Part shown: piece by piece, positions 1 to 60,547 of the stretch | How positions within the stretch are numbered: the first letter of the stretch is position 1 | How the letters are laid out: every line of letters starts with the position of its first letter | Origin: Ophiura sarsii | Lineage: Eukaryota; Echinodermata; Ophiuroidea; Amphilepidida; Ophiuridae | Direction of reading: 5' to 3' | Assembly: GCA_035610835.1 (NCBI GenBank) | Contig: CM069456.1 | Coordinates: 28,934,788-28,998,787, forward strand | DNA length: 64,000 nt | Notes under the pieces: generated by a model | Told to the model about the DNA's origin: nothing | The model's database searches: none | Seen by the model: only the letters and a program-made list of their open reading frames with translations | Made by a program: the position numbers and the translations under genes

Positions 1-939
1 GACTGTCGTCGTAAGAAATAGAATACAGAGAAAACTCGCTCCAATTGTGGCAATTGTTAAATATAAAACCACGTCCTCGTCTTGTGATGAACAATCATTA
101 TTGCATTCACCGGATATTTGTGTATCCTGCTTTATCATCTGGTCCCTGCTTTCATCTGTTATTACTGGTTTCACAATATATTCAGTATCTGTTCCCATGT
201 TGTGCATAGTTATCGGACCAATATGACATGTACGCTCCCTATTCGGAAATGCTGGACTGGATAGATGGCATGAACACATTGCTCCATGAAACGAAGTATC
301 TGCAATTAATGTTACCTGAGCGGTAACCATATCAGCAGTGGTTGTATTCCGAATTATCATTTGTCCATCCGGGTGATTACAGCTCCATTTTAATTCCACG
401 GTCGGTAATCCTTTCTCAGAAGAACATGTTAAAACAAGTTTGTTTCCAACGTACAGTTGTATTGGTTGGATTGGAATACTCTCACAAACAGGAAATAGTG
501 TATCCGGAAAGGAATGTATTCCAACGTTTACAGAATTCGTACCGATAATGTTATATCCTTCTCGTGACAGGTTTTCTACCCTGCATATATATTCACCTTG
601 ATCAGTGTGTAAAATATCCACTACAGTCAAAACGTATACATGGTTTTGGTCCGGAAATACGCGTGAAGCGAGAAATACACGGTTATGTAAAGATGAATCT
701 AAATATGACTTGCCTGATGTTATTGTTTCAAAACGTCCATCATTAACTCGTATAATATTGACTTTGTATCCATCTTGCATATTCCTTATTCTACACTGAA
801 TCACCATTAAACCACCAATCGTTAATGGTTTCATTAGTGAAGTCATTTCTACTGCTGCATTCGTTCCCTCTGTCCACGCAATATTCACAAACATCGTGAG
901 TATAACAACGATAATTATGATGCCAAATGACGCCGCCAT
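1..939 (-). CDS. Gene A: two-Ig-domain type I membrane receptor, group 1; 3' end outside the window
   Basis: An open frame of 313 codons runs from ATG at 939 down to base 1 with no stop, so the gene continues beyond the left edge. Residues 1-22 are a hydrophobic signal peptide. Ig domain 1 has Cys49 and Cys119 in a DQGEYIC motif. Ig domain 2 has Cys172 and Cys224, plus extra cysteines 152, 187, 222 and 238, and an N-glycosylation sequon NTT at 198. The stalk carries Cys279 and Cys283. The last residues are the first two thirds of the membrane helix; the tail is cut off by the window edge. The CxIW tryptophan of other copies is Arg52 here. It is the only family member on the minus strand. Its 5' region lacks the AGGTGTGTCACCGT block of group 2 but resembles that of C. 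The membership is certain; the receptor role is inferred. Confidence 0.9.
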   Translation of the reverse strand, partial: MAASFGIIIIVVILTMFVNIAWTEGTNAAVEMTSLMKPLTIGGLMVIQCRIRNMQDGYKVNIIRVNDGRFETITSGKSYLDSSLHNRVFLASRVFPDQNHVYVLTVVDILHTDQGEYICRVENLSREGYNIIGTNSVNVGIHSFPDTLFPVCESIPIQPIQLYVGNKLVLTCSSEKGLPTVELKWSCNHPDGQMIIRNTTTADMVTAQVTLIADTSFHGAMCSCHLSSPAFPNRERTCHIGPITMHNMGTDTEYIVKPVITDESRDQMIKQDTQISGECNNDCSSQDEDVVLYLTIATIGASFLCILFLTTTV

Positions 940-2170
940 GCTTAGACAAGCAACATCCAACGTTATCCACCGTAATATTGGGCGTGTTGTATACACTGTT
1001 TGTAAACGCTATCTCCGCCGAATACTATCGTACATTACTGGATTCAAAACGTACGCATATCCATATTATGCATTTAATGCATTAAAACCAGTCTAGTACA
1101 GCAGCTATTTCTTTGTTTAACTGATGAATTTCACGTCATATTCTAGCTACAGTATAGCGTAATGCTTGATAGAAAATGACGTTCTTCGACATTATTACGC
1201 ATACAGTGCATCGCATTGATTATGCATGAACAACAAACGCCATGGTAATATATTCACCGCATATAATTAAAGACCATGTCACCGTGTATGTTAATTAGAA
1301 CAGACTGGCATCCTAAGCTATTTATCATAAATATAAGAGATATTTCCGTAATTATATGCAGTACGATGATAATGCAATATGAAAATGAGCTTCAGGAGAA
1401 CAGTAGATGGCGTGCTTTAACCGCCGCGTATACTATATGATACATTTGGACTGTCACGTGGGAATGCTTTGACTGATTACCTTGTTTTCGTGGCAACAAC
1501 AATTCAAGTATTCTAACGCTACTTAAGGATGTATCAAAATACAATAGATAGAAGATAGCAGAAGTATTGAAGAAAATAGAGGATTTTGTCAAATGTGTTC
1601 ATTGTTCAAAGTTAATTTTCTCGTTGCGAGACCAGACGCTTTCTATAGGATACATGTCGCTTGTCAATGAAATTATTGAAATTGTTGTTTATTTATTTGT
1701 TTAGTTAGTTAATTAGTTAGTTCTTACTGTATAACCTTTAAAATCGGACAATACTTACACCATACGAAACACTGTACTCATTTATCTACGGAACATCGTC
1801 GCACAGCTACATTAATGTCAAACTAAAAGGAAAATTGAAATTGATGCGCAAGTACAATAGCATAGTATATTTTTAAGGAGGGTACATTTTTTTGAATAGC
1901 AAAGTCGTAATACAAGCCCATTAGGGGCAATATTAAGGTGGAATGCAGTTGGTGTTCTCACGCACAATAACCGTGCAGTCCACTCAATTGAGGGATAACA
2001 TTTCTATTTAAAGATGGGATGACTGGAGTAGGTGGTGGTGGTGTGAAGTACCTTAGAATGAATAAACACATTTATTTGTAACATATGTATGTTAGTATTT
2101 TAATTTAGCTAGTCAGATCAGTTAATCACATTTTTGTTGATTATTGTTTTCATCCGTGTGAATTACATGT
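940..2170. other. Intergenic between A and fragment B
   Basis: AT-rich DNA. The first 150 bp are the 5' flank of A and share a CACGCCCA segment with the flank of C. I see no other gene, no clear terminal repeats, and only short uninformative open frames. Confidence 0.5.
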
Positions 2171-2805
2171 ACGCCGTGTTTTCATGCCAGTCTAGCATTC
2201 CCGAATACGGAACGCTCATGTGATATTGGTCCGACAACTGTGCACAACATGGAAACATATAATGTCAATATAATGAAACCAGTAATACAAGATGGAAGTA
2301 GGGACCAGATTATAAAACAGGATACACAAATATTTGGCGAGTGCAAAAATGAATGTTATATTTAACAATTGCTACAATTGGAGCGCGTTTCCTCTGCATT
2401 TTATTTCTTACAACGACAATCATCTCATGTTACATCTCCACCGAGATTAGAAAAGCAAGACGTTCTGTACCTATAGGCGGATTTATAAATGAACGGACAC
2501 ATTGAAGCAGCGCATTGCGTACATTGCGTGATGCGCGCGCAATCATGAGCGTGATAATTTCAGGCGCGATCATCTTTGTGCTGCGTGCGTGTTGTTCGTT
2601 CAATTATTAAGTTGACTATAGTAATGATGGGAGTGAACCAGTGTATGTGTCACTACAGAGGCGACGTGATAATGAAAGGAATTCAATGTACTTGACACTT
2701 AAAGATCCAAATAATCCAGGAAGTCAAGTTCTCATGCCAAAGGAGGTCTTTGATAAATTTTACAGAACATTGCAACCGTCAGAAGAGTGTAAAGCGTCAA
2801 AAAAA
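2171..2805 (+). pseudogene. Fragment B: 3' half of a group 1 receptor gene
   Basis: Homology to the family starts in the second Ig domain (CHIGP-type segment near 2210) and runs through stalk, membrane helix and tail. It closely matches gene A in the stalk. The frame is broken: a stop follows the stalk near 2362, where the codons leading into the helix are altered, and bases 2477-2615 are a foreign insertion within the juxtamembrane region. The tail after 2622 is recognisable, with YVSL retained and the second motif changed to YLTL. The signal peptide and first Ig domain are absent. It cannot encode a receptor. An AATAAA follows the coding remnant at about 2813. Confidence 0.85.
2477..2615. 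mobile_element. Small inverted-repeat insertion in fragment B
   Basis: About 139 bp absent from all other copies, flanked on both sides by CTATAG (2471-2476 and 2616-2621), which looks like a 6-bp target duplication. The ends are imperfect inverted repeats around GAACGGACAC and GTTGTTCGTTC. The centre is rich in GCGC. No coding content; family unknown. Confidence 0.5.
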
Positions 2806-5545: not shown

Positions 5546-7336
5546 ATGGCGTCGGTTGGTATTATCATCGTTATCATTTCAATTTTCGTGGATCATTCGT
5601 TGGCAGAGAGAACGGATACAGTAGTAGAAGTGACGTCACTAATGAAACCAGTAACAATTGGAGGTTTAATTCAGTGTCGAATATGGAACATGCAGGAGGA
5701 GTATACAGTCAATATGTTTCGATTTTATGATGGACGTATTAAGCCAATAACCTCTGGTTTCGCATATCTGGGCTCTTCTTTATTAGATAACCGTGTATTT
5801 CTTGCTACTCGAATATTCCCGGACCAAACCCATGTTTATGTATTAACGATGACGGACATCGCGTACGATGACCAAGGTGAATATAAAGTGCTCAACAAAA
5901 GAAAGTCGTACACTTTGTTTAGGTCATTTAAAGTAACTTTCGACTATTTGTTTACCAAACAGGCTAAATAGACATTTGGATGAATCTTTTAGGCACATTT
6001 TGATACCAAACATAACACCTAACAACAAAGATAAACCATGATTAGCACCATTTATAGAAAATTAGTCATTTTTCAAAAGTCACATTTCCAATACACTACG
6101 TGGAAGAAAACCCCAATTGTTAACAAGCACATAATGCCCTTTATGTTCGGAATCAAATATCCCGCTCACTAAGTGTACGCCCAGCGCAAAGGTAGTGTAC
6201 ACGGCTGCACTGTGGGATCGATTGCCCGCCGGTCAATCCTGGTTAATAACTGTGTCACGCATGGGGTGAACCTCGCACACACACAATTTCCTCCCGTGTA
6301 GTAATTGAAAATGTGACTTTGAAAAGTGACTAATTTTCTTTAAATGGCGCTAATCATGGTTTATCTTTGTTGCTAGGTGTTATGTTGGTATCAAAATGTG
6401 CCTAAAAGATTCATCCAAATGTCTATCTAGCCTGTTTGGTAAAAAAACAATCAAAAGTTACTTTAATTAACCTAAACAAAGTGTACGACTTTCTTTTGTT
6501 GAGCACTTTATATGTAGGGTGGAATACGTTTCCAAAGAAGGATCTAGTACGATTGCGTCGAAAACTGTAAGCATTATATTACACTCTTTCCCGAGTAAAG
6601 GATTCCCTACATGTGACAGCGTTCCAATCCAGCCTATAACATTGTATGCAGGAAACAAACTGATCTTAACATGTGCTTCTGAAAAAGCTATCCCGACTGT
6701 AAAACTTACATGGAGCTGCACTAATCTAGATGTACTCATGTCTGCCTGGAATACATCCAGTGCAAACATAGTATCCTCACAGGTAACATTAATATCCGAC
6801 ATGTCATACCACGGCGCTGTATTTTCTTGTCACTTATCCAGTACAGAATTTCCATATAGAGAACGTACTTGTCATATTGGTCCGCTAAATATACAAAACA
6901 AAGGAAATGATGTCAAAATTGTAAAACCAGTAATAACAGATGAAGGTAGGGACCAGATTATTATACAGGATACACAACTTTCTGATGAGTGCAATTATGA
7001 TTGTTCATCAGAAGATGAAGACATTGTATTATGTTTAAAACAATTGCCACAATTGGAGCGAGTTTTCTATGCATCTTATTTCTTACGACGACAGTCATCT
7101 TCTGTGTCAAATATCATAGTATCTCCAACGAGACCAGAGAAGCAAGACGTACTGCTTCAGGTAACGATGGAAGTGAATCAGTGTATGTGTCACTACAGAG
7201 GCGACGTGATAACGAGAGAAATTCAATGTACATGACACTTGAAGATCCAAATAATCCAGGAAGTAAAGTTCTCATGCCAAGAGAAGTCTTTGATGAATTT
7301 TACAGAACATTGACCGTTTACAAAAAAAGAGTGTGA
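5546..7336 (+). pseudogene. Gene C: group 1 receptor interrupted by a transposon and a frameshift
   Basis: The ATG at 5546 opens a signal peptide (MASVGIIIVIISIFVDHSLA) and most of Ig domain 1. At the GEY of the GEYxC motif a 623-bp inverted-repeat element is inserted, and reading through it meets a stop at 5971. Ig domain 2 and the stalk resume at 6511 and stay open to about 7040 (sequon NTS; SDEC and DC stalk cysteines). There, two extra bases relative to A shift the frame as the membrane helix begins. The helix and a complete tail with YVSL, YMTL and YRTL follow in another frame to 7336. The domain order matches A, so this is a full-length gene with two lesions rather than a fragment. The second lesion means it is probably dead even in cells lacking the insertion. 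Confidence 0.85.
5886..6508. mobile_element. MITE inside gene C, 623 bp, with inverted repeats of about 190 bp
   Basis: The ends AAGTGCTCAACAAAAGAAAG and its complement extend inward as a near-perfect inverted repeat of roughly 190 bp. TA flanks both ends (5884-5885 and 6509-6510). Counting one TA only, the two sides join in the reading frame seen in gene A, which confirms the boundaries. The centre (about 6090-6300) is more GC-rich and not recognised. Confidence 0.9.
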
Positions 7337-9515: not shown

Positions 9516-9683
9516 TAAGCGTACGTGCAGCACAGTGTGAGCACTATATTATTTTGGTACACAATTTCTTTAATAACAATCTATACAAGCTTTACTTTAC
9601 TTGACACTAGTGTACACTACCGTTCTTGATAGAGCAATTACTTTTAACGAAATGAATTCATAGACAACGGCTGTAGCGTTCAG

Positions 9684-10061
9684 TAGTACCCCCTCTATCG
9701 GTAGCATTCGACACATGGTTTTCATAAATGAATGGAATAAATTATACTGATGCATATTTAATTTATGGCGTACTGTAATGGATATTAGGCTAGGCTATCT
9801 GTGTGTCTTTGTTCAGTGCCGTGTATTACAGAATTAGTCATCACATTGGATAATACGTCGTATTTCATAGCAAATGGTTACACTTATATTCTTCAAATTG
9901 TCATCATTGAAGAGTAAATTCAGTAATTTACTTCGATTCTCCGTGTGATTTACGGATCGTGTCGTTTATAATATGTATAGATGCATCGTATAGAGACGAA
10001 TGAACGCTTTTAAAAACTGTATGTGATTAACAACGGCTCAAAACGTAAGGTGTGTCACCGT
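9684..10061 (+). promoter_or_regulatory. Conserved upstream region of gene D
   Basis: Carries three blocks shared by all group 2 genes: TAGTACCCCCTCTATCGGTA at 9684, the TATCTGTGTGTCTTTGTTCA block near 9798, and AGGTGTGTCACCG at 10048-10060, 21 bp before the ATG. The last block contains GGTG and CACC arms around TGT. Confidence 0.6.
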
Positions 10062-10081
10062 ACATTGACAATATTCACAAA

Positions 10082-11245
10082 ATGGCGTCGCTCGTTATAA
10101 TATTTGCGTTATTATGTTTTGATAGAATGCATCATTGCAGCTCAGCGGACACAGATGCCACTAGGGTGGAACTTACAACTCCAGTTTATCCTGTAGCAGT
10201 AAGTGGTATCTTAGCAATGCAGTGTCAAATCTGGAATATGCAGATAGGGTACGTTGTTGATTTTTTCCGTGTGCATAATAGCATTACCGAGCGCATAACA
10301 ACAGGTAAAACATACGCCGAATCAATGCTCTGGCAACGTGTATTCCTCGCCACCCGAACATTTTCTGATGGAACTACTGTATATTTTCTTACCCTGGTGG
10401 ATATTAAGCCTAGTGACGGAGGTAAATATATGTGCCAAGTGTATACCATGACAGATGGAATCGTGGAAATTGCTCGAGATTCCCGTATGGTTGAAATCAA
10501 TTCATTTCCGAGTGAACCATATCCATCTTGTCAGAGTGTTCCAAATCAAAGGGTTATCGATGAAGGCGATACACTGCGTTTAACCTGTACTTCTGAAAAG
10601 ACAACCCTACTTGTAACATTAAAATGGAGTTGCAGTAATGCAAATGCAATTTTAATTGCTCGCAACCTAACAAATAGTGATATTGTTTCGACTGAAGTAA
10701 CACTGGAACTAGGGAAAGTACATAATGGAGCTATATTTATATGCACAATGACTAGTGCAGGTTTCCCTGAACGAGAGAGAACGTGTAAAACTGGACCCAT
10801 TAATGTACGATATACAACAGAAACATCGATAAGCGATCAAGCTCCAACAGAACCATTAAATCCCGTAATCTCAATGAAACATCCTAACCAAATTCAATCT
10901 ACTGACTGCAAGGCTTCGTGTCGCCCTGAAGATAAGAATTCAATATTATACTTAAGTGTAGCTACACTAGGAGCAACAATAATTATGTTGACATTTTTGA
11001 CAACAACCATCATCTACTGTTGTAAATATCACCATATATCCAGTGAAATAAGAGAAGCACAAAGAAATGTTCCTGGTAATGATGGAAGTGACCCGGTTTA
11101 TGTGTCACTACAGAGACGTCGTGATAATGAAAGAAATTCAATGTATATGACACTTGAAGATCCTAATAATCCCGGAAGTAAAGTTATTATGCCCAAGGAA
11201 GCATTCGATGAATTTTACAGAACATTGACTGTTAAAAAGGTATAA
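10082..11245 (+). CDS. Gene D: intact two-Ig receptor with three YxxL tail motifs (group 2c)
   Basis: 387 aa in one exon. The ATG at 10082 is chosen because ATGGC at this place is the only start common to all copies; an in-frame GTG at 10052 lies in the conserved upstream block. Residues 1-22 are a signal peptide. Ig domain 1 has Cys48 and Cys118 in DGGKYMC. Ig domain 2 has Cys169 and Cys221, with additional cysteines 150, 184 and 235, and sequon NLT at 195. The stalk has Cys276 and Cys280. The membrane helix is about 288-312, without charged residues, ending CC. The 73-residue tail has Tyr340 (YVSL), Tyr355 (SMYMTL, which fits the ITIM consensus) and Tyr379 (YRTL). The first two are separated as YxxL-x11-YxxL, within the loose ITAM spacing. 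It is almost identical to F. Role inferred: cell-surface recognition with phosphotyrosine signalling. Confidence 0.93.
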   Translation: MASLVIIFALLCFDRMHHCSSADTDATRVELTTPVYPVAVSGILAMQCQIWNMQIGYVVDFFRVHNSITERITTGKTYAESMLWQRVFLATRTFSDGTTVYFLTLVDIKPSDGGKYMCQVYTMTDGIVEIARDSRMVEINSFPSEPYPSCQSVPNQRVIDEGDTLRLTCTSEKTTLLVTLKWSCSNANAILIARNLTNSDIVSTEVTLELGKVHNGAIFICTMTSAGFPERERTCKTGPINVRYTTETSISDQAPTEPLNPVISMKHPNQIQSTDCKASCRPEDKNSILYLSVATLGATIIMLTFLTTTIIYCCKYHHISSEIREAQRNVPGNDGSDPVYVSLQRRRDNERNSMYMTLEDPNNPGSKVIMPKEAFDEFYRTLTVKKV

Positions 11246-13766
11246 TCATAGTGTATGATTTTAATATGTTATGGAAGCTACACCATATTCTGTTATTGTG
11301 ACACAGTTCTATTTCATGTCCCAATGATAAATACGAACGTACAACCCTTCAATGAATATATCCTGAAAACAGACTAAATAACCAATAACGATATCACGGT
11401 AATGGTATCACTTTGATTACCATTCCAAATTGAATACATGCATTTATTCTTCTCAATTTGTTGTTGCTGTTGTTTTTGTTTTATCATTTAGGTTAAAATA
11501 TCCAACCAAATTATTTCTTTGCATTTAGAGGAAATTGTATTTGTTATGGATATGTGTGCGTTAAATGGACACGCGACTCTGCTAGTTTGATATTATAAGA
11601 ATACTTAAAACTATTGATTTTACATTACGATTGTGACAACATTTCCATGTTCCCTAAACATTAGTATTTTGTAAAGTGGTCTTGCGTGTGTAGCATACCA
11701 TTGGTGATTTATAATAGGTAAATAGAGTATATTACTATATTTATCGATATGTAAAATATATTATCTTATTAATTCAAATCCCTGAATATCATAATATTAG
11801 TGGAACTCACAGACAAAAATGTTTAGGTTTTAAACCAATCACTACATCAAGAATAAAAAATGAGATCAAATATGCAACAAATACTCTGATGCGATTGGAA
11901 ATTATTTCAAAACGTATGATATAATATGTTTGTATATTGTGCATAAATGATTTGTTAGATTAAATGTGCTGTAGAATGTTTGTAATGTGTTGCAAAAAAA
12001 AAAAAATTGAAAACAATTAAAACACGGATATGTAATACTTTTTGTAAAATAAATTGTGATGGCAAATTAACTAATTATTAATGACACCGTGTTATATGTG
12101 GCGTGAAAATATCGTGTACACGAGTAATACACAGGATTATACTACATGGTGTAATCTTAATATATATGTATATGGATTACATTTTCCCTTTCTGATGAAT
12201 GATCTAAAAATACGTTTTGATATGGATGTTCAATCACATTATGATATAATATATACGTCATCATACTCTGATATATTTAAATATCCCGTTGTTACTGTAC
12301 TTATGGCAATGGAGATAAGAATACCATTGGGTGAATAAATATTCATATACACTACACATGAATATACCATGAATAAACTAGTGATTATTTTCAGCAATGT
12401 TGGTATTGCGTGCTTGTGGTTTTTTTACGGAAAATGATTATGGAAATATGCACAATCATGAGTTTATGAAGAATAACTATATATTGCACACAAGCACTAT
12501 CGTTATTACTGAAAATAATGAAGATTATTCATTGTAGATAGTATATCTAGGATATAAACACTGCGCATTTTTTTTTTTTTGCGGCAGTGCACATATGCGA
12601 GCGGTGTCAGTGTAATTTTATGCGGCCAAACTATAATTCATTATGTACATGTATCACTGATGGCGTGCATTCCTGCCAATGTCGCGAATTTGCAGCATTG
12701 AAGTTATGCTCTACGATTGAAATATGATATGTTGCTTTGATAAACATGGGTTTTATAACTCAGTTACGGTTGTAATATATTAAAATATCAAATATACGAT
12801 GACAATTATAAATGCGAATGATGATGATATTGTTATATTTATAGTGATCTTGTTGACATTAGACAAGCAGTTTCGAGTGTGATAACACGTGTGGTCGTGC
12901 AAAGAGTACATTTTCTACATAATATAGTGCATCGTCACACAGCTAGAATACTGTCAACATATGAGAAAAACTTAAATGTTAGGATAGTTATGATACAATC
13001 ATCGTATTGTTGAGGAGGATGAATGATTATCAGATTATAAATAGAACCGCTTTTATTAAGTTATACAACATGTCAAGATTTTAACTGATATTCTCATCGT
13101 CACACGAACATTGTTCACTAACGTCAATGGAGAAATCTCAATTTTCTTTTCAAATATTCATATGAGTAACTTGATGATTTCACCAAGTAATAATATAATG
13201 TTTAGCATCCCCCAATACATATATAATAATATGGTAGGATATATTCTTATTCTGAGCATGGTATAATTACAATGAATTACAATAGGATTGGGGTCAAGCA
13301 TCCCATGTTATCATCATGTGCTTCTACATTACATATATTGGATGTTATCATCGTATACGACGATTTACTTTAAATAGGCGGTGGTTCAATTTACTACTAA
13401 TTCGTTCTACTCTCAGTACTGCTTAAAAATACATATCCTATATGAGTAACATGGAAAGAAAACAATGTCATTATCGTATCAACACCTTTTATATAATACT
13501 TCTGGTAAATTTGACTAGTCTGGACATATTCACTTAATACGTTTAACAATCAAAGCTAAGTGAAACTGTATATTTTGAAAACACAAGTTATACCACGGAT
13601 AACCTCCTCATTTTCTTGTGAATTGTATATGACAAAGGTTACATATCAATAAGTTATAGATCAATCATTAGTAACAAGTAGTCAAATATATTGTTGAATA
13701 ATAAAGGTTATGGTTGAAATCAATAAAAATAAGAATAAAGATATCGGGTTGCCTAGGATCTAGGCA
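11246..13766. other. Intergenic downstream of D; duplicated downstream of F
   Basis: Matches 21587-24345 almost continuously, with small gaps. Parts also recur behind I (about 34020-34300) and K (about 47180-47420), for example the segment with GATCTTGTTGACATTAG and the CATCGTCACACAGC stretch. No gene recognised; a frame at 12081-12338 persists in copy 2 in shortened form but is not convincingly coding. Confidence 0.6.
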
Positions 13767-14555
13767 AAAGTGTACTTCAGGTCCAAAATTCTGGACTGTC
13801 CGATACTGGAACACCCAGTATCGGATGATACTGGTACAAAGTCAGTGTTCCAGTATCAGACGATACTGGGACATATAAAATGTACCAGTATTGGGCAATA
13901 CTGGAACAAAATTATGTACCAGTATCGTTCAATACTGGGACAAATTACACTGGTAGCATGTGTACCTGTCCAGTATCGCAATTTGGTGTTCCAGTATCTA
14001 CCAATACTGGAACAGTAAAATCGTACCAGTATCGAGCGATACTGGCAACTTTTATGTTCCAGTATTGAACGATGCTGGTATCTGGGAGATATTGAACGAT
14101 ACTGGTATCTGGGAATATTACAATCTAAGTGCTGATACTGTGTCCGCCGTGTCGGTAGCCTGGTAAATGAAGCGAAGTGATTGTGACGATTTCCTAATGG
14201 CAGTAAAAATCCGGTGGTTCGGAAGTCACGTAAAAATGGTGGTCCCGTGCATCTGAAGAGCAATACCCGAGCACATTAAAAGGTTACAGACTCTTTCGTA
14301 AAGAGTAGGGGATCATACCGGTCTGTAGCTGTTTACACATCTAACGGACCCAATGTAAATAAGCTAATATAAGCTTATTGGGTTATCCAGGGTCGTAGGA
14401 CCCTTATATACCAGTATTTTGTATGCATTTTTTATATATTTGTTGGTCTTTTTATTGAATCGTTTTTTAATATGTATGTAATGATGGTGACTATTTTGGC
14501 CATTTTATTCATGTAAAGCACATTGAAGCTTTTCGTACTGCGATATATAAGTCCT

Positions 14556-14796: not shown

Positions 14797-15038
14797 AAAG
14801 TGTACTTTAGGTCCCAGATACTAGTATACCAGTTTCATTCAATACTTGAACATAACAATTGCCAGTATCGGTCGATACTGGTACGATTTTACTGTTCCAG
14901 TATTTATCTATACTGGAACACCAAATTGTGTTCCAGTATCGGTCGATGCTTGAACACTGGCTTTGTACCAGTATCGAACGATACTAGGTGTTCCAGTATC
15001 GGACAATACTAATACAGCTGGAACCTAAAGTACACTTT
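14797..15038. mobile_element. Palindrome-array element 2, 242 bp
   Basis: Ends AAAGTGTACTTTAGGTCC and GGAACCTAAAGTACACTTT. Between them are about six CCAGTATCG/CGATACTGG palindromes with AT-rich spacers of similar length. It appears complete and lacks the nested SINE of element 1. No reading frame of significance. Confidence 0.8.
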
Positions 15039-15984: not shown

Positions 15985-16951
15985 CAGTGACCTGTGACCG
16001 GATACAAAGTCAACATGTTCCGAGTGCATAATGGGCGTATTGAGCCGCTAACATCTGATGACACATATTTCAAATCGTCGTTAGATAACCGTGTATTTCT
16101 GGCTAGTCGAGTATTTCCTGAACGAATTCATATATACATACTAACGTTGGTCGATGTTTCACTCACTGATAAAGGTGGATATATGTGTAGAGTAGAAAGC
16201 CTATCCGTAGAAGGATATACTACTATCGCAGGAAACAAAGTCAACGTTGAAATATATACTTTTTCGAATAAAATATTTCCTTTCCTTCTTGTGAGAGTAT
16301 TCCAATCCAACCAATAACATTATACGTAGGAAATGATTTGGTTCTAACATGTTGTTCTGGAAGAGCCATCCCGACTGTGGAATTAAAATGGAGATGTAAT
16401 CGACCAAATATACACATGATAACTCAAAATACAACCACAGCTGACATGGTTTCCTCTCAGGTAACTTTAATATCAGATATGTCATATCATGGCGCTGTGT
16501 TTTCATGTCATCTATCTAGTCCAGGATTCCCGAATAGGGAACGTACATGTCATATTGGTCCGTTAAATGTACAAACCATTGGAACAGATAATGTCAATAT
16601 AGTAAAACCAGTAATAACAGATGGAGATAGGGACCAGATTATTATACAGGATACACAACTATCTGATGATTGTAAAACTGATTGTTCATCTGCTTTTTAT
16701 TTCTTACGACGACAATCATCTCATGTTATAATTATCATAGCATCTCCAACGAGGCCAGAGAAGCAAGACGTACTGTTCCAGGTAACGATGGAAGTGAACC
16801 AGTTTATGTGTCACTACAGAGGCGTCGTGATAATGAGAGAAATTCAATGTACATGACACTTGAAGATCCGAATAACCCAGGAAGTAATGTTCTCATGCCA
16901 AAGGAGGTGTTTGATGAATTTTACAAAACATTGACCGTCAAAAGAGTGTGA
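15985..16951 (+). pseudogene. Gene G: 5'-truncated, frameshifted group 1 receptor
   Basis: Homology starts at the YKVNMFRV strand of Ig domain 1, so the signal peptide and first beta strands are missing. The frame is lost at about 16270, where extra bases precede the VCESIP-type segment. It is open again from about 16300 through Ig domain 2 (sequon NTT) and most of the stalk. At about 16690 the codons joining stalk and membrane helix are deleted with a frame change. The remaining helix (FLFLTTTI) and a full tail with YVSL, YMTL and YKTL follow to 16951. It is the counterpart of C in the second copy of the C-D block. Confidence 0.85.
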
Positions 16952-19950: not shown

Positions 19951-20036
19951 TTGTTCGTTTTTATATAGTACGCCGTTCTTGATAGAGCAATTACTCCAAA
20001 CGAAATGAATTCATAGACAACGGCTTTAGCGTTCAA

Positions 20037-20410
20037 TAGTACCCCCTCTATCGATAGCATTCGACACATGGTTTTCATAAATTAATGGACTAAATTATAC
20101 TGATGCATATTTAATTTATGGCGTACTGTAATGGATATTAGGCTAGGCTATATGTGTGTCTTTGTTCAGTGCCGTGTATTACAGCATTAGTCATCACATT
20201 GGATAATACTTCGTATTCCATAGCAAATGGTTTGCACTAAATTCTTCAAATTACCATCATTAAAGAGTAAATTCAGTAATTTACTTCGATTCTCCGTGTG
20301 ATTTACGGATCGTGCCGTTTATAATATGTGTTAATGCAACGTATAGAGACGAATGAACGCTTAAACTGTATGTGATTAACGACGGCTCCTAACGTAAGGT
20401 GTGTCACCGT
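20037..20410 (+). promoter_or_regulatory. Conserved upstream region of gene F
   Basis: Nearly identical to the D upstream region, with all three blocks: TAGTACCCCCTCTATCGATA at 20037, the TATGTGTGTCTTTGTTCA variant near 20149, and AGGTGTGTCACCGT at 20397-20410. F therefore retains its presumed promoter. Confidence 0.55.
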
Positions 20411-20430
20411 ACATTGACAATATTCACAAA

Positions 20431-21366
20431 ATGGCGTCGCTCGTTATAATATTTGCGTTATTGTGTTTTGATAGAATGCATCATTGCAGGTCAGCGGACA
20501 CAGATGCCACTAGGGTGGAACTTACAACTCCAGTTTACCCTGTAGCAGTAAGTGGTATCTTAGCAATGCAGTGTCAAATCTGGAATATGCAGATAGGGTA
20601 CGTTGTTGATTTTTTCCGTGTGCATAATAGCATTACCGAGCGCATAACAACAGGAAAAACATATGCCGAATCATTGCTCTGGCAACGTGTATTCCTCGCC
20701 ACCCGAACTTTTTCTGATGGAACTACTGTATATTTTCTTACCCTGGTGGATATTAAGCATAATGACGGAGGTAAATATATGTGCCAAGTGTATACAATGA
20801 CAGACGGCATCGTGGAAATTGCTCGAGATTCCCGTATGGTTGAAATCAATTCATTTCCGAGTGAACCATATCCATCTTGTCAGAGTGTTCCCAATCAAAG
20901 GGTTATCGATGAAGGCGATACACTGCGTTTAACCTGTACTTCTGAAAAGACAACCCCACTTGTAACATTAAAATGGAGTTGCAGTAATGCAAATGCAATT
21001 TTAATTGCTCGCAACCTAACAAATAGTGATATTGTTTCGACTGAAGTCACACTGGAACTAGGGAAAGTACATAATGGAGCTGTATTTATATGCACAATGA
21101 CTAGTGCAGGTTTCCCTGAACGAGAGAGAACGTGTAAAATTGGACCCATTAATGTACGATATACAGCAGAAACATCGATAAGCGATCAAGCTCCAACAGA
21201 ACCATTAAATCCCGTAATCTCAATGAAACATCCTAACCAAATTCAATCTACTGACTGCAAGGTTTCGTGTCGCCCTGAAGATAAGAATTCAATCTTATAC
21301 TTAAGTGTAGCGAGCAACAATAATTATGTTGACATTTTTGACAACAACCATCATCTACTGTTGTAA
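20431..21366 (+). CDS. Gene F: frameshifted copy of D, predicted soluble two-Ig protein
   Basis: 311 codons from ATG at 20431. The signal peptide, both Ig domains, the sequon and the stalk cysteines are all present and differ from D at only about eight residues. Within the first turn of the membrane helix (after YLSVA) 8 bases present in D are missing near 21310. The frame then reads 16 polar residues and stops at 21366. The helix and tail remain readable out of frame in 21326-21586. As it stands the product would be a secreted ectodomain without a membrane anchor or tyrosine motifs. It may be a decaying duplicate, a real soluble form, or an assembly error; the sequence alone cannot decide. 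Confidence 0.75.
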   Translation: MASLVIIFALLCFDRMHHCRSADTDATRVELTTPVYPVAVSGILAMQCQIWNMQIGYVVDFFRVHNSITERITTGKTYAESLLWQRVFLATRTFSDGTTVYFLTLVDIKHNDGGKYMCQVYTMTDGIVEIARDSRMVEINSFPSEPYPSCQSVPNQRVIDEGDTLRLTCTSEKTTPLVTLKWSCSNANAILIARNLTNSDIVSTEVTLELGKVHNGAVFICTMTSAGFPERERTCKIGPINVRYTAETSISDQAPTEPLNPVISMKHPNQIQSTDCKVSCRPEDKNSILYLSVASNNNYVDIFDNNHHLLL

Positions 21367-21586
21367 ATATCACCATATATCCAGTGAAATAAGAGAAGCA
21401 CAAAGAAATGTTCCGGGTAATGATGGAAGTGACCCGGTTTATGTGTCACTACAGAGACGTCGTGATAATGAAAGAAATTCAATGTATATGACACTTGAAG
21501 ATCCTAATAATCCGGGAAGTAAAGTTATTATGCCCAAGGAAGCATTCGATGAATTTTACAGAACATTGACTGTTAAAAAGGTGTGA
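21367..21586 (+). pseudogene. Out-of-frame membrane and tail remnant of F
   Basis: Continues D homology with no further damage: CCKYHHISSEIR, YVSL, YMTL and YRTL are all readable in the frame displaced by the 8-bp deletion. Lack of extra lesions indicates that the frameshift is recent. Confidence 0.8.
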
Positions 21587-21804: not shown

Positions 21805-21837
<33 letters not shown>

Positions 21838-28611: not shown

Positions 28612-29778
28612 ATGGCGTCACCTATTATCATACTGGTGTTATTGGTTATGAAACTTGTGCAGCCGTCTATATCAGCGGACACGGAAGACACTAGGGTAGA
28701 AGTAACAGTTGCAGTTCAAACTGTAGAGGTTGGTGGTATCTTGGCATTAAAGTGCCAAATAGGGAATATGCGAGACGATTACTACGTCGAAATATTACGT
28801 GTGTACAATGGACGGCCCGAGCGAATAACATCAGGGGAAATATACGCCAAATCATTACTTTGGCAACGCATATTCCTTTCTACGCGAACGTTTCCTGATG
28901 GATCTGTTTATTTTCTTACCCTTGTGAATGTAAAACAAAACGACGGAGGTAAATATCTATGTAAGGTATCACACACCACTCCTGATGGAACGTCTGTGGA
29001 AATTGGTCGAGATTCAGCTATGATTGAAATTAATTCATTTCCCGATGAATTATATCCACAATGTCACAGTGTGCCCAATCAGGTCACTATAAACGAAGGA
29101 GCTACACTGCGATTGATATGCACTTCTGAAAATACGTTCCCTCTTGTAAAACTGAAATGGAGCTCCATTAATACAAATGTTGTTATCAATGGTTATAATG
29201 TAACAGACAGTGACATGACTTCTTCTAAAGCAACTCTTAGAGCAGGGAAATTGCATGATGGAGGTATTTTCATATGTAAAATGACAAGTTATCGATTTCC
29301 AGAACGTGAGAGAACATGTACTATTGGTCCCATTAATGTAAGATACACTACAGATTCATTGGTTAGCGATACATCGCCACAAGCAACATCAAACCCCGTA
29401 AACTCAATGGAAAATCCAAACCAAATTCAATCTACTGACTGTAAGAACTCGTGTCGCCCTGAAGATAAAAATACTATTTTATACTTGAGCGTCGCTACCT
29501 TAGGAGCCAGTATAATAATGCTGACATTTCTAACAACTACCATCGTCTACTGTTGTAAATACCAAAACATATCTAGCGAAATCAGAGAAACACAAAGACG
29601 CTTTCCTGGTAACGATGGAAGTGAACCGGTCTATGTGTCACTACAGAGGCGACGTGATAACGAGAGAAATTCAATGTACATGACACTCGACGATCCAAAT
29701 AATCCAGGAAGCAAGGTTCTTATGCCAAAGGAGGTGTTTGATGAATTTTACAGAACACTGACTGTCAAAAAGGTTTAA
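28612..29778 (+). CDS. Gene I: intact two-Ig receptor (group 2b) missing a conserved cysteine
   Basis: 388 aa, one exon. Signal peptide 1-22. Ig domain 1 has Cys48 and Cys117, but the tryptophan of CQIW is Gly51. Ig domain 2 has Cys170 and Cys222 with extra Cys151 and Cys236; the WSC cysteine of every other copy is Ser185. Sequon NVT at 196. Stalk TDCKNSC, membrane helix ending CC. The tail has YVSL, YMTL and YRTL at 341, 356 and 380. The first two thirds match K and N. The tail motif YMTL (not YMTI) and the 3' flank match D instead, suggesting a mosaic gene. Frame and length are fully preserved, so it is probably expressed, but its ligand-binding face may differ. Confidence 0.92.
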   Translation: MASPIIILVLLVMKLVQPSISADTEDTRVEVTVAVQTVEVGGILALKCQIGNMRDDYYVEILRVYNGRPERITSGEIYAKSLLWQRIFLSTRTFPDGSVYFLTLVNVKQNDGGKYLCKVSHTTPDGTSVEIGRDSAMIEINSFPDELYPQCHSVPNQVTINEGATLRLICTSENTFPLVKLKWSSINTNVVINGYNVTDSDMTSSKATLRAGKLHDGGIFICKMTSYRFPERERTCTIGPINVRYTTDSLVSDTSPQATSNPVNSMENPNQIQSTDCKNSCRPEDKNTILYLSVATLGASIIMLTFLTTTIVYCCKYQNISSEIRETQRRFPGNDGSEPVYVSLQRRRDNERNSMYMTLDDPNNPGSKVLMPKEVFDEFYRTLTVKKV

Positions 29779-38946: not shown

Positions 38947-39274
38947 TAGTACCCCCTCTATTGGTAGCATTCAGATGATTATCATAAACGACCGGGATAA
39001 ATTAAACCGAGATGAATATTAAATGTCAAGCGAAAAAATTATAATGAATTTAGGTTAGGTTATATGCGTGTCTTTGTTCAGTGCTGTGTATTAGAGAATT
39101 AGTCATCACATTGAATAACACTGTGTGTTCTATCTAAAAATGATGATGTGATTATCTTGAAATAAGATGACCATGGTGATCAATATGCGGAAACCTACAT
39201 AGAAACAAACATAGACAGATGCTGTGAATTTTGTACCAGAAACAGTACGCTATTAACGTGAGGTGTGTCACCGT
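38947..39274 (+). promoter_or_regulatory. Conserved upstream region of gene J
   Basis: TAGTACCCCCTCTATTGGTA at 38947, the TATATGCGTGTCTTTGTTCA variant near 39061, and AGGTGTGTCACCGT at 39261-39274, 20 bp before the ATG. Confidence 0.6.
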
Positions 39275-40455: not shown

Positions 40456-40837
40456 TCACATTGTATTCATTGAATGTGTTAATATGTCATATATATATAT
40501 AATATTGCACGTTATCTATGTAATGGTGGTAAACAAAATGAGATTGAATTGTGTACACTTGTATAACCCTCTGGATCCTTATTTGCATATTTGTATAATT
40601 CTTTAATACAACTGTAGTTGATCAATATGTTACGAAATAGTCAATTACTTTCATGATAACGTTGGGGTTCAATTTATTATCAATACTTTCCCAACAACTC
40701 CTTATCATATCATTTAAAGGTGTATGCTCTGATCACTTATTTTTGGCTATGATTTTTTGTTCACATCAAGATATTTTGATATCAAAAGAATCCGCGTACT
40801 CGTTTCTTAACGAATATGATCTGATGGAAGTGTAGTT
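40456..40837. other. Spacer between J and J'
   Basis: 3' flank of J, similar to those of H, J' and M (a GTGTACACTTGTATAACCCT segment followed by TTTAATACAACT). No other content seen. Confidence 0.55.
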
Positions 40838-41568
40838 TATTTTCTAACACTGGTGAACCTGAAGCATAGCGACGGAGGTAAATATATATGTAATATATGT
40901 ACCTTGTCGGATGGAAATATTGAACAGGATTCTCAAACAGTACAAGTCAATTCATTTCCAACTGATTTGTCTCCGTTATGTAATAGCGATCCAGATAGGT
41001 TGCTTTTAAACGACGGTGAAGTACTATAAAGTCTAACGTGTACTTCGAAAAGACATCACCACTTGTCAACTTATAATGGAGTTCTGCTTAGTAGCGATGA
41101 GTGTCGAAAAATTACACCACATGTGCAATGACAAGTACTGGGTTCCCTGGACGAGAGAGAGTGTGTAAAATTTGTCCCGATAGTGTGAGATATACTACTG
41201 ATACATCAGACAGAAAGTGTTACAGTTCGAAAATAAACTACTTACACTTTTAATGGAGGGCTCAAATATCATTCAATCAACAGTTTGTACGGACTCTTGT
41301 CCTCCTTAAGATTATAATACCATTTTATATTTAAGCGTAGCTACGCTAGGAGCAACCATAATCATGTTGACATTTTTGACAACAACTATCATCTTCTGTT
41401 GTAAATACCAACATATTCAGCGAAATCAGAGAAGCACAAAGAAGCGTTCCGGGTAACAACGGAAGGGGTGTACACGTATGTGTCACTTCAGATACATCGC
41501 GATATCGAGAGAAATTTAATGTACATGACACTTGAAGATCCAGACATGAAGATTTTGAAAAAGGTTTA
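40838..41568 (+). pseudogene. J': degenerate group 2a receptor copy
   Basis: Homology to J begins within Ig domain 1 (the VYFLTLV strand) and goes on through Ig domain 2, stalk, helix and part of the tail, then into a 3' flank like that of J. There are many lesions: stops near 40893 and 41026, small insertions and deletions through Ig domain 2, loss of part of the WSC region, and a shortened tail in which YRTL is missing. Upstream sequence does not match, so the 5' part was lost. It is clearly older than F. Confidence 0.85.
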
Positions 41569-43452: not shown

Positions 43453-43824
43453 TAGTACCCCCTCTATTGATGAAAGTCGTCATACGATTATCATACATTA
43501 TGATTAACACCGATTTGCATATTTAATGTCAGGTCACCGATATATCATTAATATTAGTCTAGGCTATCTGTGTATCTTTGTTCACTGCCGTACATCAATG
43601 CATTAGTCATCGCATCATCTTTGATGAGGCAAGTGATTTTTGATGAAGCAAATGATTTCACTCCTCGTTTGGCTATGGACGTTTGCAATAATTGAGATTA
43701 TATATTGAGATGTTCTTAAATTTACCAACTACATGTACCATTATCAGTGCATGTGGATAATACATACAGCCCGGGTGTGTGTCATCTGAATCTGGTGCGT
43801 TATTATCGTGAGGTGTGTCACCGT
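43453..43824 (+). promoter_or_regulatory. Conserved upstream region of gene K
   Basis: TAGTACCCCCTCTATTGATG at 43453, TATCTGTGTATCTTTGTTCA near 43564, and AGGTGTGTCACCGT at 43811-43824. A MITE ends exactly at the first block. Confidence 0.6.
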
Positions 43825-48770: not shown

Positions 48771-49150
48771 ACTACTCTATCGATGCCCATGATATACGAG
48801 ATTATTTTATCCGTAATAAATTAAACCGAGTTGCAAATTTAATGCACGGCTAGCGATATATTATGATAATTATATTCTCGGGTGTCTGTGTATCTTTGTC
48901 CAATGCTGTACATCATTGCGTTAGTCATCACATAATAACATATCGTATTTGATGTAGCAGGTGATTGTATACATCATATGATAGCATTTTCATGTACTAC
49001 AGACATTTTAGACAAACTGCACTGAGGATAAATATGTTCTTTATAGAATTGTTATCGTCTACTAATCGGTGTTTGAAAAATTATCTTACAACGAAGGTGT
49101 GTATGTGTATGAACGACATCAGTTTTTTATAACGTAAGGTGTGTCACCGT
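48771..49150 (+). promoter_or_regulatory. Conserved upstream region of gene L
   Basis: The first block is degraded (ACTACTCTATCGATG at 48771), the second is a variant (TGTCTGTGTATCTTTGTCCA near 48884), and AGGTGTGTCACCGT at 49137-49150 is intact. The flank AACGTAAGG matches D and F rather than K and N. Confidence 0.5.
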
Positions 49151-50329: not shown

Positions 50330-51804
50330 TGTGCTAACTGTTATTTAACAATAAAGCATAACAGTTTGTAACGACCGCAGCATTGTTTATGGCAATTCTA
50401 AAAATATATATACAAGAAACAAAGATATACACAGGTACATTATACTGTACAACGTTGTATACTCTTGATGGTTTGTTTATCAATTATGTTAGTCGTATAT
50501 TATACTAGAAATAATGTGCATTATTATCATAAAATTATTAATATGTGACCATCCACTCCACCATAAATGTTATTAAAAGTTGGCTTTAATCAAAAATCAA
50601 ATGAATCAAATGTGCACATATTAAAACGGTCCTTTGACTTTGATGGGTGCATTGAACCGTAACATTTGTTTGTATAAAGCGTATTTAACCTAGTTAATCT
50701 TCGGATCCGAAAACATGAAAATAATCGATTAACATAAGCAATACGTGACAAGTTGTTGCATGCTGAACCCCGTTTTACCATTCCAATGGTATTTACACGG
50801 GAAAGACATGTGGCATGATGGACTGAGTGTTCACTATATGCATGTACCTGTAATGTGTTGTGATACTGGCAAAATAAACAATGGGCGATATTCACCCACC
50901 AAAGGTGTTCAGAATATTACATAATTTAATAGTTAGGATAATGTATCATGGCATATTAAAATAGCTGGCAAATGAAATATTCTGAAGACACTTTTCTCTT
51001 GACCAATTGCACTTTAGTCACAAAATCAATCACACTTGTGAAGGAAAATACGTACCAGCTTCACAAATTATAAGTTCTGAGTCCATCATGTCCATTGATT
51101 CTTCTGCTTATGTTTTGCATCATATAAAATGAAATGTTAGCTTCTTCGTAATTTGAAATACAAATATTAGTTATCTTTGTTAAAATGTAGGTCTTTAACG
51201 AAGACCTCCTTTAATATGGCCACTGCTCATATACAATTTCGTCATGCTACAGTAACATACCTATCCAAATGTCTGAACTGGGTAAATCACATTGGAATGG
51301 TGAAGAAGGGGTCGGCTTACAAAACCTGTCGATTACTTTCATATTTTGGAAAGTGAACTAGATTAGATACCCTTTACACCAACAGCAGGTATGTCATGGT
51401 TCAATGCACAATCCAAGGTCAGTTCATTCCGTATATTGCATGTTCTTCTTTGTAACATATGTAGTCCAAAATCAATGAATCCATTGAAAAGTCTCATGTT
51501 TCATACCCTTTATTGAAATGTGCTTTGCGCCATATCTCATCTCAGAGAAGATGCACTGCAGACTTTATGGCCCCTTTGTGCTGGATGCCCACATGCAGCG
51601 GCTTACCAGGATTTATAACATCCAGTCCTTATCAATAACTTTAATCACTTTTTTAATACTTATAGTCACTGTACTAAGATAATTAAACTCTGCAAATGAT
51701 CCCCTCCCTTATTTCTTCTTGATTTCGTGTACGCTATGTTGTATATAAAGTTATGACATCAAAATATAGTAATGCAATATTTATACTCTTTCAAATAAAA
51801 TTGA
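50330..51804. other. Intergenic downstream of L
   Basis: 3' flank shared with K and N for about 120 bp, then sequence I cannot assign. The 101-codon minus-strand frame at 50590-50895 has no signal peptide, helix or known motif and is not called as a gene. Confidence 0.45.
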
Positions 51805-51950
51805 ATCTCCAGACTGTCGTCCTGAAGATAAAAATATCGATTTATAGTTGAACATCACCACCTTAGGAGCAAGTATACTTATGTAGACTTTTTACAAGAA
51901 AAACATCATCTGTTGATGATAACTATCCTCAAATGTCCAGTGAATTCCAA
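51805..51950 (+). pseudogene. L': stalk and membrane-helix fragment of a group 2 receptor
   Basis: About 145 bp match the region from the CRPEDKN stalk through the membrane helix to the juxtamembrane IxSE segment of the intact genes. The frame contains TAG stops (near 51846 and 51884). Flanking Ig and tail sequence are absent. It directly abuts an antisense LINE fragment. Confidence 0.75.
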
Positions 51951-55689: not shown

Positions 55690-56063
55690 CCCTATATTTG
55701 TATAACACTTCTAAAACTTTATCTGTACATTTTTGTATTTTTAAAATAGCTCAAAAATAGTTTGCATTGAATGGGTATATATTTATGTAATGAGTAATTA
55801 TGCAAACATGTGTAATGTACTTACAGTGATTTAAGATAATGGTTTAGATAAATATTCATAATAATAAATACTTTGGGTTTTTAGTATCTTTTTATAACTT
55901 GTGTATTTTCCAACACGGAATTAAGGTACATGACGGTTTACTGTTAAAGATTTATTGTAGACAATAATGCCGAACCATACGTAACATATTTGGAGGTCAA
56001 TGGGCCCCATTCTTGCTAAAATTTTGATATACGATAAGCCTATGTGAGATAATGCGCATGCAG

Positions 56064-56406
56064 TAGTACCCCATCTATCGGTAGCATTTAACCAAATGAT
56101 TATCATAAATGGACGGAATAAATTAAACCGAGATGAATATTAAATGTCAAGCGTAAACATGATAATGAATTTAGGTTAGGTTAACTGCGTGTCTTTGTTC
56201 AGGGCCGTGCATTAGAGCATTAGTCATCACATTGAATACCACTTTGTATTCTATATCTCAAATGGATGATGTGATTATCTTGAATATGATGACCATGATG
56301 ATGAATACGCGGATATCCATATAGAAACAGATTATATGATATAGACAGATGTAGTGTGAGCTTTGGAACATTAGCAGTACGCTATTAACGTGAGGTGTGT
56401 CACCGT
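56064..56406 (+). promoter_or_regulatory. Conserved upstream region of gene M
   Basis: TAGTACCCCATCTATCGGTA at 56064, the variant TAACTGCGTGTCTTTGTTCA near 56181, and AGGTGTGTCACCGT at 56393-56406, 18 bp before the ATG. Confidence 0.6.
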
Positions 56407-58847: not shown

Positions 58848-58980
58848 ATTTGTTTAATCTAGCGTCACTCGGGGCGTCACCCAAGGAAACACATCTGTCA
58901 ATATGCGCATGAGTATAATTATCGTATTTGAAGGTATACTTTTTACATCCAACACGAAATCCATCATCTTTTTATAGCGA

Positions 58981-59357
58981 TAGTACTCCCTCTATTGATG
59001 AAAATTCGTCATACAATAATCATAATTTCTTTACTGAATAATACCGGGTTGCATATGTAATGTAAGGTTAACGATATATCATTAATATTAGTCTAGGCTA
59101 TCTGTGTATCTTTGTTCACTGCCGTACATCAATGCATTAGTCATCGCATCATCTTTGATGTAGCATGATATTTTACATCTCGTTTTTGTTTCAAATATGG
59201 AAGTTGGAAACAATTCAAATTATGGATTAAGATGTTCTCTTTGTGTAATTTACCAACTACCATGATCAGTGCATATAGATAAATCATACAGCTTTGGTGT
59301 ACGTGTGTATGTATGTCATCGAAATCGGTGCGTTATTATCGCGAGGTGTGTCACCGT
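58981..59357 (+). promoter_or_regulatory. Conserved upstream region of gene N
   Basis: CATCATCTTTTTATAGC at 58962, TAGTACTCCCTCTATTGATG at 58981, TATCTGTGTATCTTTGTTCA near 59099, and AGGTGTGTCACCGT at 59344-59357. Confidence 0.6.
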
Positions 59358-59377
59358 TAATGGATGTTATTTTCAAG

Positions 59378-60547
59378 ATGGCGTCGCCCGTTATCATGAT
59401 GGTGTTATTGGGAATGGAATTTCTGCAGCCGTCAATATCAGCGGACACTGTAGACACTGTGGTAGAGCTGACAGTTGCAGATCAACCTGTAGAGGTTGGA
59501 GGTATTTTAGCCATGCAATGCCAAATATGGAATATGCAACCAAACTATGTTGTTGATTTTTATCGTTTGAATAATGGAAATATCGAGCGATTAACAACAG
59601 GAGACACATACATCCGATCATTGCTGTGGGAACGCATTTTCCTTTCAACGCGTACATTTTCAGACAGATCTCAAGTCTATTTTCTTACTCTTGTGGATGT
59701 GAAACAAAACGACGGGGGCAAATATCTATGTAAGGTTTCACATACAACTCATGATGGAACATCAGTGGAAATTGGTCGAGATTCAGCTTTGGTTGAAATT
59801 AATTCGTTTCCACATGAATTATATCCACAATGTCACAGTGTGCCAAATCAAGTCGCCATAAAAGAAGGCGCTACACTGCGATTGGTATGTATTTCGGAAA
59901 AAACGCTCCCTCTCGTTACTCTAAAATGGAGCTGCATCGATAAAAATGTGGTTATCAATGCTCGTAATGTAACCAACAATGACATGACTACTTCTGAAGT
60001 AACTTTTAGAGCAGGAAAATTACACGATGGAACTGTATTCATGTGCACAATGACAAGTTATCGATTCCCGGAACGAGAGAGAATGTGTACAATTGGTCCC
60101 ATCAATGTACGATACACGACAAATACATTTGTCAGCGATACATATCCTAAAGCAACATCAAACCCCGTTCACTCAATGGAAAATCCAAACCAAATTCAAT
60201 CTACAGACTGTAAGAACCCGTGTCGCCCTGAAGATAAGAATACCATTTTATACTTGAGCGTCGCTACCTTAGGAGCAAGTATGATAATGTTGACATTTTT
60301 AGTGACTACCATCATCTACTGCTGTAAATACCAACACATATCCAGCGAGATCAGAGAAGCTCAAAGAGGCGCACCCGATACAGATGGAAGTGAACCTGTG
60401 TATGTGTCACTACAGAGGCGAAGAGATAATGAAAGGAATTCGATGTACATGACTATTGCAGATCCAAATAATCCAGGAAATAAAGTTCTTATGCCAAAAG
60501 AAGTGTTTGAAGAATTTTACAGAACATTAACAATCAAAAAGGAATAA
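59378..60547 (+). CDS. Gene N: intact two-Ig receptor (group 2b)
   Basis: 389 aa, one exon. The frame is open upstream to 59294, but the ATG at 59378 is chosen because it aligns with the common ATGGC and is followed at once by the signal peptide (through SISA). Ig domain 1 has CQIW and DGGKYLC. Ig domain 2 has RLVC and FMC with PQC, WSC and RMC, and sequon NVT. Stalk TDCKNPC then RPEDK. The helix reads TFLVTTI before YCC. Tail tyrosines are 342 (YVSL), 357 (SMYMTI) and 381 (YRTL). C-terminus KKE. It is the second gene of cassette 3, closest to K, and shares 3' flank with K and L. Confidence 0.93.
   Translation: MASPVIMMVLLGMEFLQPSISADTVDTVVELTVADQPVEVGGILAMQCQIWNMQPNYVVDFYRLNNGNIERLTTGDTYIRSLLWERIFLSTRTFSDRSQVYFLTLVDVKQNDGGKYLCKVSHTTHDGTSVEIGRDSALVEINSFPHELYPQCHSVPNQVAIKEGATLRLVCISEKTLPLVTLKWSCIDKNVVINARNVTNNDMTTSEVTFRAGKLHDGTVFMCTMTSYRFPERERMCTIGPINVRYTTNTFVSDTYPKATSNPVHSMENPNQIQSTDCKNPCRPEDKNTILYLSVATLGASMIMLTFLVTTIIYCCKYQHISSEIREAQRGAPDTDGSEPVYVSLQRRRDNERNSMYMTIADPNNPGNKVLMPKEVFEEFYRTLTIKKE

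Follow-up and report, generated by a model that had tools for sequence, protein, structure and literature searches.

The 64-kb window of the brittle star Ophiura sarsii analyzed here (64,000 nucleotides, contig C16 of the 1.57-Gb genome searched) contains a tandem array of genes for predicted membrane proteins with two immunoglobulin (Ig) domains. We predict that these are surface recognition receptors sharing one phosphotyrosine module, a reading to which we give a probability of about 0.5, because the genes are single open reading frames (ORFs) with Ig domains, a tail private to the family, a regional pattern of constraint and evidence of tail exchange between subfamilies. Immune-type recognition through SH2 proteins would be the likeliest function. 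A further proposal, which we hold more tentatively, is that over 100 intronless two-Ig genes form a germline repertoire, in which block-wise divergence of ectodomains combined with cross-block conversion of tails would produce a system of many inputs and one output.

Architecture and distribution of the family

Searching the window with the eight intact proteins (tblastn) returned 16 stretches, or 15 copies when the stretches 5594-5884 and 6348-7327 are joined as a single split copy, and so bears out the fifteen copies proposed in an earlier note on this DNA. Eight of the 15 are complete single ORFs from signal peptide through stop, encoding 382-412 aa from the listed ATG. No intron interrupts these ORFs, as had been claimed, and one could still lie in the 5' untranslated part. 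The shared plan of signal peptide, two Ig domains, stalk, helix and tail, which had been ascribed to the whole array, holds for these eight, whereas six of the other seven copies are broken genes or fragments. The seventh, cut by the window edge, reads open up to that edge and is complete in the genome sequence (C16:28934557-28935708).

Each of the eight intact proteins matches the Pfam Ig_3 model in two places, and an Ig model scores above its curated cut-off in seven of them, with none for the 25500 copy. The fold prediction that had been proposed as a check likewise gave two Ig domains for the protein of the 28594 copy, our reference, with a predicted local distance difference test (pLDDT) of 93-97 in blocks of ten residues across the first domain (D1). 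A model of the ectodomain alone, built from the eight window rows, reached a pLDDT of 43.8 and was not usable. Across an alignment of 128 sequences (the 120 database proteins listed by our search plus the eight window copies; hereafter the family set), cysteines 157, 283, 287 and 320 are present in 128/128 and C242 in 127/128.

All eight intact copies have a tail of 73 residues from the lysine of a membrane-proximal 'KY' to the stop, with tyrosines at positions 1, 25, 40 and 64 counted from that lysine. The spacings of 15 and 24 residues given by the earlier note are therefore exact in 8/8, although its count of three tail tyrosines omitted the one in 'KY', which is found in 123/128 of the family set. 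Its description of a fixed triple-tyrosine tail fails as a family trait: retention in the family set is 128/128 for the first motif tyrosine (Y1), 96/128 for Y2 and 126/128 for Y3, with F, L, I, V or C replacing Y2 in the remaining 32 and the Y1-Y2 spacing ranging from 13 to 52. Within the genome, Y1 is kept in 100/102 copies.

The immunoreceptor tyrosine-based activation motif (ITAM) pattern YxxL/I-x6-12-YxxL/I fits 8/8 window copies and 92/102 genome copies, as had been suggested, but only 23/128 of the family set with the window eight included (41/128 if V is permitted at +3). A signaling mechanism of ITAM type for the whole family is ruled out by the scarcity of this consensus. The strict inhibitory counterpart (ITIM), (S/I/V/L)xYxx(I/V/L), had also been proposed; it is found at Y2 in 8/8 window copies, at Y1 too in one of them, and at least once per tail in 83/102 genome copies, but is wholly lacking in 60/128 of the family set.

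Some tails depart from this layout in other ways. Repeat units resembling EPDRSSxYK add tyrosines in P0050, P0059, P0070, P0072 and their relatives, and tyrosine counts from Y1 onward run from 1 to 8 across the 128 sequences.

In the whole genome we located at least 111 places belonging to the family, 105 with one query and six more with a second, the latter identified by eye from a comparison of coordinates. Of the first-look candidates, 552 for the first query and 534 for the second, 105 were scored in each case, so the counts are lower bounds biased to intact copies; among the window's broken copies only the one at 20431 falls within the 105. Matches free of internal stops were obtained for 102/105 places (the scoring favors intact copies), and full ORFs were usable for 102/105. 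These 102 entered an ectodomain tree (L018, L051 and L087 were left out) together with the 123 of 138 database proteins of at least 374 aa.

The ectodomain tree divides the copies on C16 into subfamilies A (11), B (35), C (18) and D (20), and those on C1 into E (16) and F (2). The 84 usable C16 copies lie in six contiguous blocks, each of one subfamily and one orientation, between 28.27 and 29.47 Mb (1.2 Mb): C- 16, C+ 2, D+ 20, B- 31, A+ 11 and B+ 4. A second cluster occupies another chromosome (C1:115427585-115636692, genome G000) and has a tail of its own, with a Y1-Y2 spacing of 13 in 16/16 E copies. B, C, D and E each cluster with proteins of other genomes at bootstrap values of 99-100, and these subfamilies therefore predate this lineage. 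In C, D and E some database proteins nest among the genome copies, which dates part of that duplication to before this lineage as well. The A copies form one clade (0.999), as do the B copies with weaker support.

Relatives outside the genome were sought among database proteins, giving 154 matches at E ≤ 1, of which the 120 listed are 39-49% identical to the window protein. Three of the matches listed carry a name, each an 'uncharacterized protein' of Amphiura filiformis (class Ophiuroidea); the best match of the A. filiformis protein P0012 in this genome is 53% identical. The viral contigs searched held no relative of the family. Of 93 candidates in a search with the tail, 89 passed E ≤ 10; every one of these belongs to this family and has an E value of 1.2e-16 or lower, and 72 are also among the protein-search matches listed. 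A further tail search in a longer size class yielded 7 of 7993 scored candidates, all 7 placed in this family by score and tree. At the sensitivity of both searches the tail appears private to the family, in line with the earlier statement that no named family was recognized. We found no description of the family, nor of any brittle-star Ig-receptor repertoire, in the open-licence literature; in the accessible portions of two papers, 'immunoglobulin' is used 0 times (PMC11310086) and a term look-up gave no match (PMC5831733).

Tail similarity among subfamilies of one chromosome

Between pairs of C16 subfamilies the ectodomain proteins are 42-46% identical and the tail cores 82-92%. The same disparity is seen at the third positions of codons for the same residue, where identities in tail core and ectodomain are 0.68/0.45 (AB), 0.66/0.47 (AC), 0.59/0.48 (AD), 0.72/0.46 (BC), 0.62/0.43 (BD) and 0.62/0.50 (CD). 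This synonymous excess in the tail has a bootstrap fraction of at most 0.016 in 6/6 pairs. Comparing linked with unlinked pairs over matched columns, the difference is 0.176 (0.077 to 0.277) for the tail core and 0.018 (-0.016 to 0.052) for the ectodomain. Identical tail tracts reach 89 nt in AB, 54 in AC, 46 in BC and 37 in CD, lengths attained in 0/200 synonymous reshuffles. Gene conversion of the tail among subfamilies of the same chromosome would be the best and simplest account of these results, and unequal crossing-over within the gene would give a like pattern.

Tails might instead be alike because synonymous sites are constrained or because common ancestry is recent, an explanation we regard as improbable. 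As this explanation would have it, third positions inside each of B, D and E are slightly more alike in the tail core than in the ectodomain. It does not readily accommodate the long identical tracts, nor the behavior of the C1 subfamily E, which in its ectodomain differs from A-D roughly as much as these differ among themselves. Third-position identities of A-D with E are 0.44-0.49 in the tail core and 0.42-0.46 in the ectodomain, the tail excess is not significant in any of the four E pairs (bootstrap fractions 0.098-0.54), and the E-pair tract lengths are reached in 9-23 of 200 reshuffles.

Several observations weigh against exchange throughout the cluster. The two F copies, on C1, show a weak excess with A-D (bootstrap fractions 0.032-0.29), and the AD and BD tract lengths are reached in 22/200 and 5/200 reshuffles. 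In a whole-tail tree of 25 of the 100 copies in subfamilies A-E (none of F was included), the D tail still clusters with its orthologues (100/99), the B and C groupings with other genomes (gB+oB, gC+oC) are not rejected (p 0.41, 0.51), and a single clade of all C16 tails is rejected (p 0.023). The first two of these tree results also speak for constraint or ancestry; taken together, the three indicate that exchange is partial and centered on residues 344-389.

The window itself offers a local view of A and B. Its B members are the copy at the edge and the broken copies 5594-7327 and 16000; the 2177 copy resembles B in stalk and helix. Ectodomain DNA of A and B copies is about 59% identical at best, and blastn aligns no 150-bp stretch of ectodomain between the three broken B copies and A copies. 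Their tails, by contrast, match those of A copies at 74-86% identity, and in two of the three the similarity starts inside the helix and extends almost to the stop. In trees of the second Ig domain (D2; P0054 left out) window B joins the B proteins of other genomes (100/99) and a union with A is rejected (p 0.0046), while tail trees leave the placement unresolved (p-AU, approximately unbiased test, 0.068). Tested alone, the broken B copies give borderline bootstrap fractions for exchange (0.0105, 0.0575); pooling the window B copies gives 0.001 at same-residue third positions, and a deep split within A also gives 0.0025.

Outside this genome, three database B tails (P0006, P0008, P0011) and two C tails (P0021, P0054) share a Y1-Y2 spacer of their own, YDRNSxCSxYMT. 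This looks as if tails were being kept alike in concert there too.

Selection and possible functions

Across the eight window copies the ratio of nonsynonymous to synonymous substitution rates (dN/dS) is 0.24 overall, with 0.215 in D1, 0.296 in D2, 0.409 in the stalk, 0.095 in the helix, 0.112 in the tail and 0.656 in the signal part. The five genome subfamilies give 0.21-0.28 for D1 and D2 and 0.08-0.14 for the tail. The genes are maintained, and helix and tail are the most constrained regions. Entropy in the family set is likewise lowest around Y1 (0.27 bits), then Y2-Y3 (0.54), D1 (1.81) and D2 (1.98).

On the predicted recognition function, D1 would bind ligands on other cells or microbes, and a Src-type kinase may phosphorylate Y1 (YVSL) and Y3 (FYxxL), Y2 being a further, optional target. 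Proteins with SH2 domains, of SHP-2 or Syk type, could then dock on the tail. The receptors would be carried by coelomocytes or another contact-making cell type, and gene conversion within the cluster would preserve one output module while ectodomains diverge. If true, such an array mirrors mammalian paired receptors, where conversion acts on the ectodomain and it is the tails that differ. A near-invariant tail in a family this large offers a handle on echinoderm recognition of cells or microbes, and tail exchange makes it testable whether selection fixes the output of a receptor family while its inputs diverge.

This function is not favored by every result. Y1 rarely fits the strict ITIM, with P at -2 in 125/128, and 39 close genome pairs give a pN/pS of 0.33 in D1. 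The site models M1a and M2a detect no positive selection among the eight window copies, M2a ending 0.07 log units below M1a; the lower optimum means that the M2a search did no better. Run on the same eight copies with a home-made optimizer, the test of M7 against M8 yields p 0.033 and the M8a test p 0.027, placing roughly 2% of sites at omega 2. The ectodomains are under purifying selection, without secure evidence of diversifying selection. The growth of the array and its broken copies, which had been taken as marks of an immune or allorecognition cluster, are indeed present, but the diversifying signal expected of a hypervariable allorecognition locus is not firmly seen.

Selection bears directly on allorecognition or gamete recognition, in which an individual's set of copies would mark self. 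Brittle stars are solitary animals, and that circumstance together with the purifying selection on ectodomains makes this role unlikely in our view, even though the family is large and clustered, with block structure and near-duplicates. Precedents exist in Botryllus and Hydractinia (PMC12065747; here and below, published systems are compared as described in the accessible parts of the papers).

Endocytic or scavenger receptors, with YxxPhi motifs bound by the AP-2 adaptor rather than by SH2 domains, are the least probable of the alternatives considered. From Y1 onward, 126/128 members carry between two and four Y..[LIVMF] motifs, and Y1 of the modeled 28594 protein sits in a stretch with pLDDT below 50, both as such receptors might show. 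The conserved stretches, ten residues around Y1 and 28 around Y2-Y3, nevertheless exceed what a four-residue sorting motif needs.

The chief rival to recognition receptors is that the genes are a multiplied intronless retrocopy of Kirrel/nectin-like adhesion or cell-fusion proteins, with a role in contact, fusion or regeneration and not defense, to which we assign perhaps one chance in four. In the predicted structure the two-domain geometry appears near that of Rst D1-D2, within the Rst/SYG/Kirrel, nectin and CADM group, although a common fold proves no function. Rst/SYG/Kirrel (IRM) proteins have four to five Ig domains, a count not matched by the two of the brittle-star proteins, and the more than 100 copies in this genome and the tail also set the family apart from KirrelL and the adhesion group, as compared by fold and description. 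None of the matches listed is named Kirrel, which weighs little since few are named at all; the Foldseek list is dominated by antibody chains, and the absence of other families from it carries no meaning. Echinoderm kirrelL is published as intronless (PMC8903837), as the brittle-star genes are.

Ig receptors with tyrosine motifs have invertebrate precedents (PMC12065747, PMC11999971). The Botryllus fester co-receptors (FcoR) are likewise a clustered multigene deuterostome family of the Ig superfamily with Y-x-x-I/L/V tails, but combine a sushi domain with one V and two C2 Ig domains in 520-610 aa (PMC12065747), against two Ig domains, no sushi in the Pfam results and about 390 aa in one ORF here. 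The Hydractinia Alr family comprises Ig-superfamily allorecognition candidates with ITAM/ITIM motifs (PMC12065747) but is cnidarian, and was compared by description rather than sequence. Oyster CgIgIT2 is a receptor of the Ig superfamily that likewise has a single helix and a tyrosine motif, but it carries five Ig domains (PMC11999971). For FREP-type proteins, with two Ig domains followed by fibrinogen (PMC11999971), no fibrinogen domain appears in the Pfam results of the window proteins. Siglec-11/16, CEACAM and CD300 are described, in the source portions available, as showing gene conversion or concerted evolution inside an Ig-superfamily receptor family; in the brittle star, by comparison, tails are alike and ectodomains differ. 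ITAM and ITIM motifs in this genome's copies apart, none of the named families considered is clearly matched.

Features of the window

Table 1. Receptor copies in the window and parts of the reference copy (aa, amino acids)
Feature	Position	Strand	Evidence
Subfamily B copy L045, cut at window edge, intact in genome	1..942	-	
Broken copy, probably subfamily B (stalk, helix)	2177..2787	+	
Broken, split subfamily B copy	5594..7327	+	
Intact subfamily A receptor, 387 aa	10082..11245	+	tblastn, Pfam, ORF
Broken subfamily B copy	16000..16948	+	
Broken near-duplicate of 10082, out of frame in helix (20431 copy)	20386..21583	+	
Intact subfamily A receptor, 396 aa	25500..26690	+	tblastn, Pfam, ORF
Intact subfamily A receptor, 394 aa, reference copy L001	28594..29778	+	tblastn, Pfam, ORF, model
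Reference copy, Ig domain D1, residues 34-148	28693..29037	+	model, Pfam
Reference copy, Ig domain D2, residues 149-250, extra conserved C157 and C242	29038..29343	+	model, alignment
Reference copy, stalk, residues 251-288, cysteines 283 and 287	29344..29457	+	alignment
Reference copy, predicted membrane helix, residues 289-321	29458..29556	+	model, alignment
Reference copy, tail, 73 residues	29557..29775	+	
Reference copy, tyrosine codons Y1 (YVSL), Y2 (YMTL), Y3 (YRTL)	29632, 29677, 29749	+	
89-nt tail tract, L001 identical to B copy L056, ends at residue 376	29633..29721 (approximate)	+	
Intact subfamily A receptor, 392 aa	39277..40455	+	tblastn, Pfam, ORF
Broken copy, nearest to subfamily A	40793..41545	+	
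Intact subfamily A receptor, 389 aa	43845..45014	+	tblastn, Pfam, ORF
Intact subfamily A receptor, 388 aa	49163..50329	+	tblastn, Pfam, ORF
Stalk/helix fragment	51794..51910	+	
Intact subfamily A receptor, 382 aa	56425..57573	+	tblastn, Pfam, ORF
Intact subfamily A receptor, 412 aa from first ATG	59309..60547	+	tblastn, Pfam, ORF

A 3.6-kb segmental duplication (9620-13145 and 19973-23503, 94% identical) gave rise to the pair 10082 and 20431, the latter having lost its frame in the helix. Adjoining the duplicated segment is a direct repeat of about 0.66 kb (18632-19313 and 19290-19959, 93% identical). Inverted repeats at 14797-15038 and 33670-33837, and the pairs 34869-35022 with 36130-36283 and 13829-14081 with 63621-63863, are possible small transposable elements. 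Scans of the window for tRNA genes and, at gathering scores, for Rfam families found none.

Upstream of the ATG in the intact A copies, at about 155-410 bp, lies a conserved non-coding block of roughly 170-200 bp (9674-9877, 25156-25334, 28200-28374, 38941-39121, 43452-43615, 48820-49000, 56061-56265 and 58980-59149). It is only partial at 49163 and in most pairs stands apart from the homologous coding sequence; a shared promoter and a 5' untranslated exon are candidate readings. Immediately before the ATG, the eight intact copies also share a short conserved stretch near GGTGTGTCACCGT, of which 25500 and 28594 carry one-base variants.

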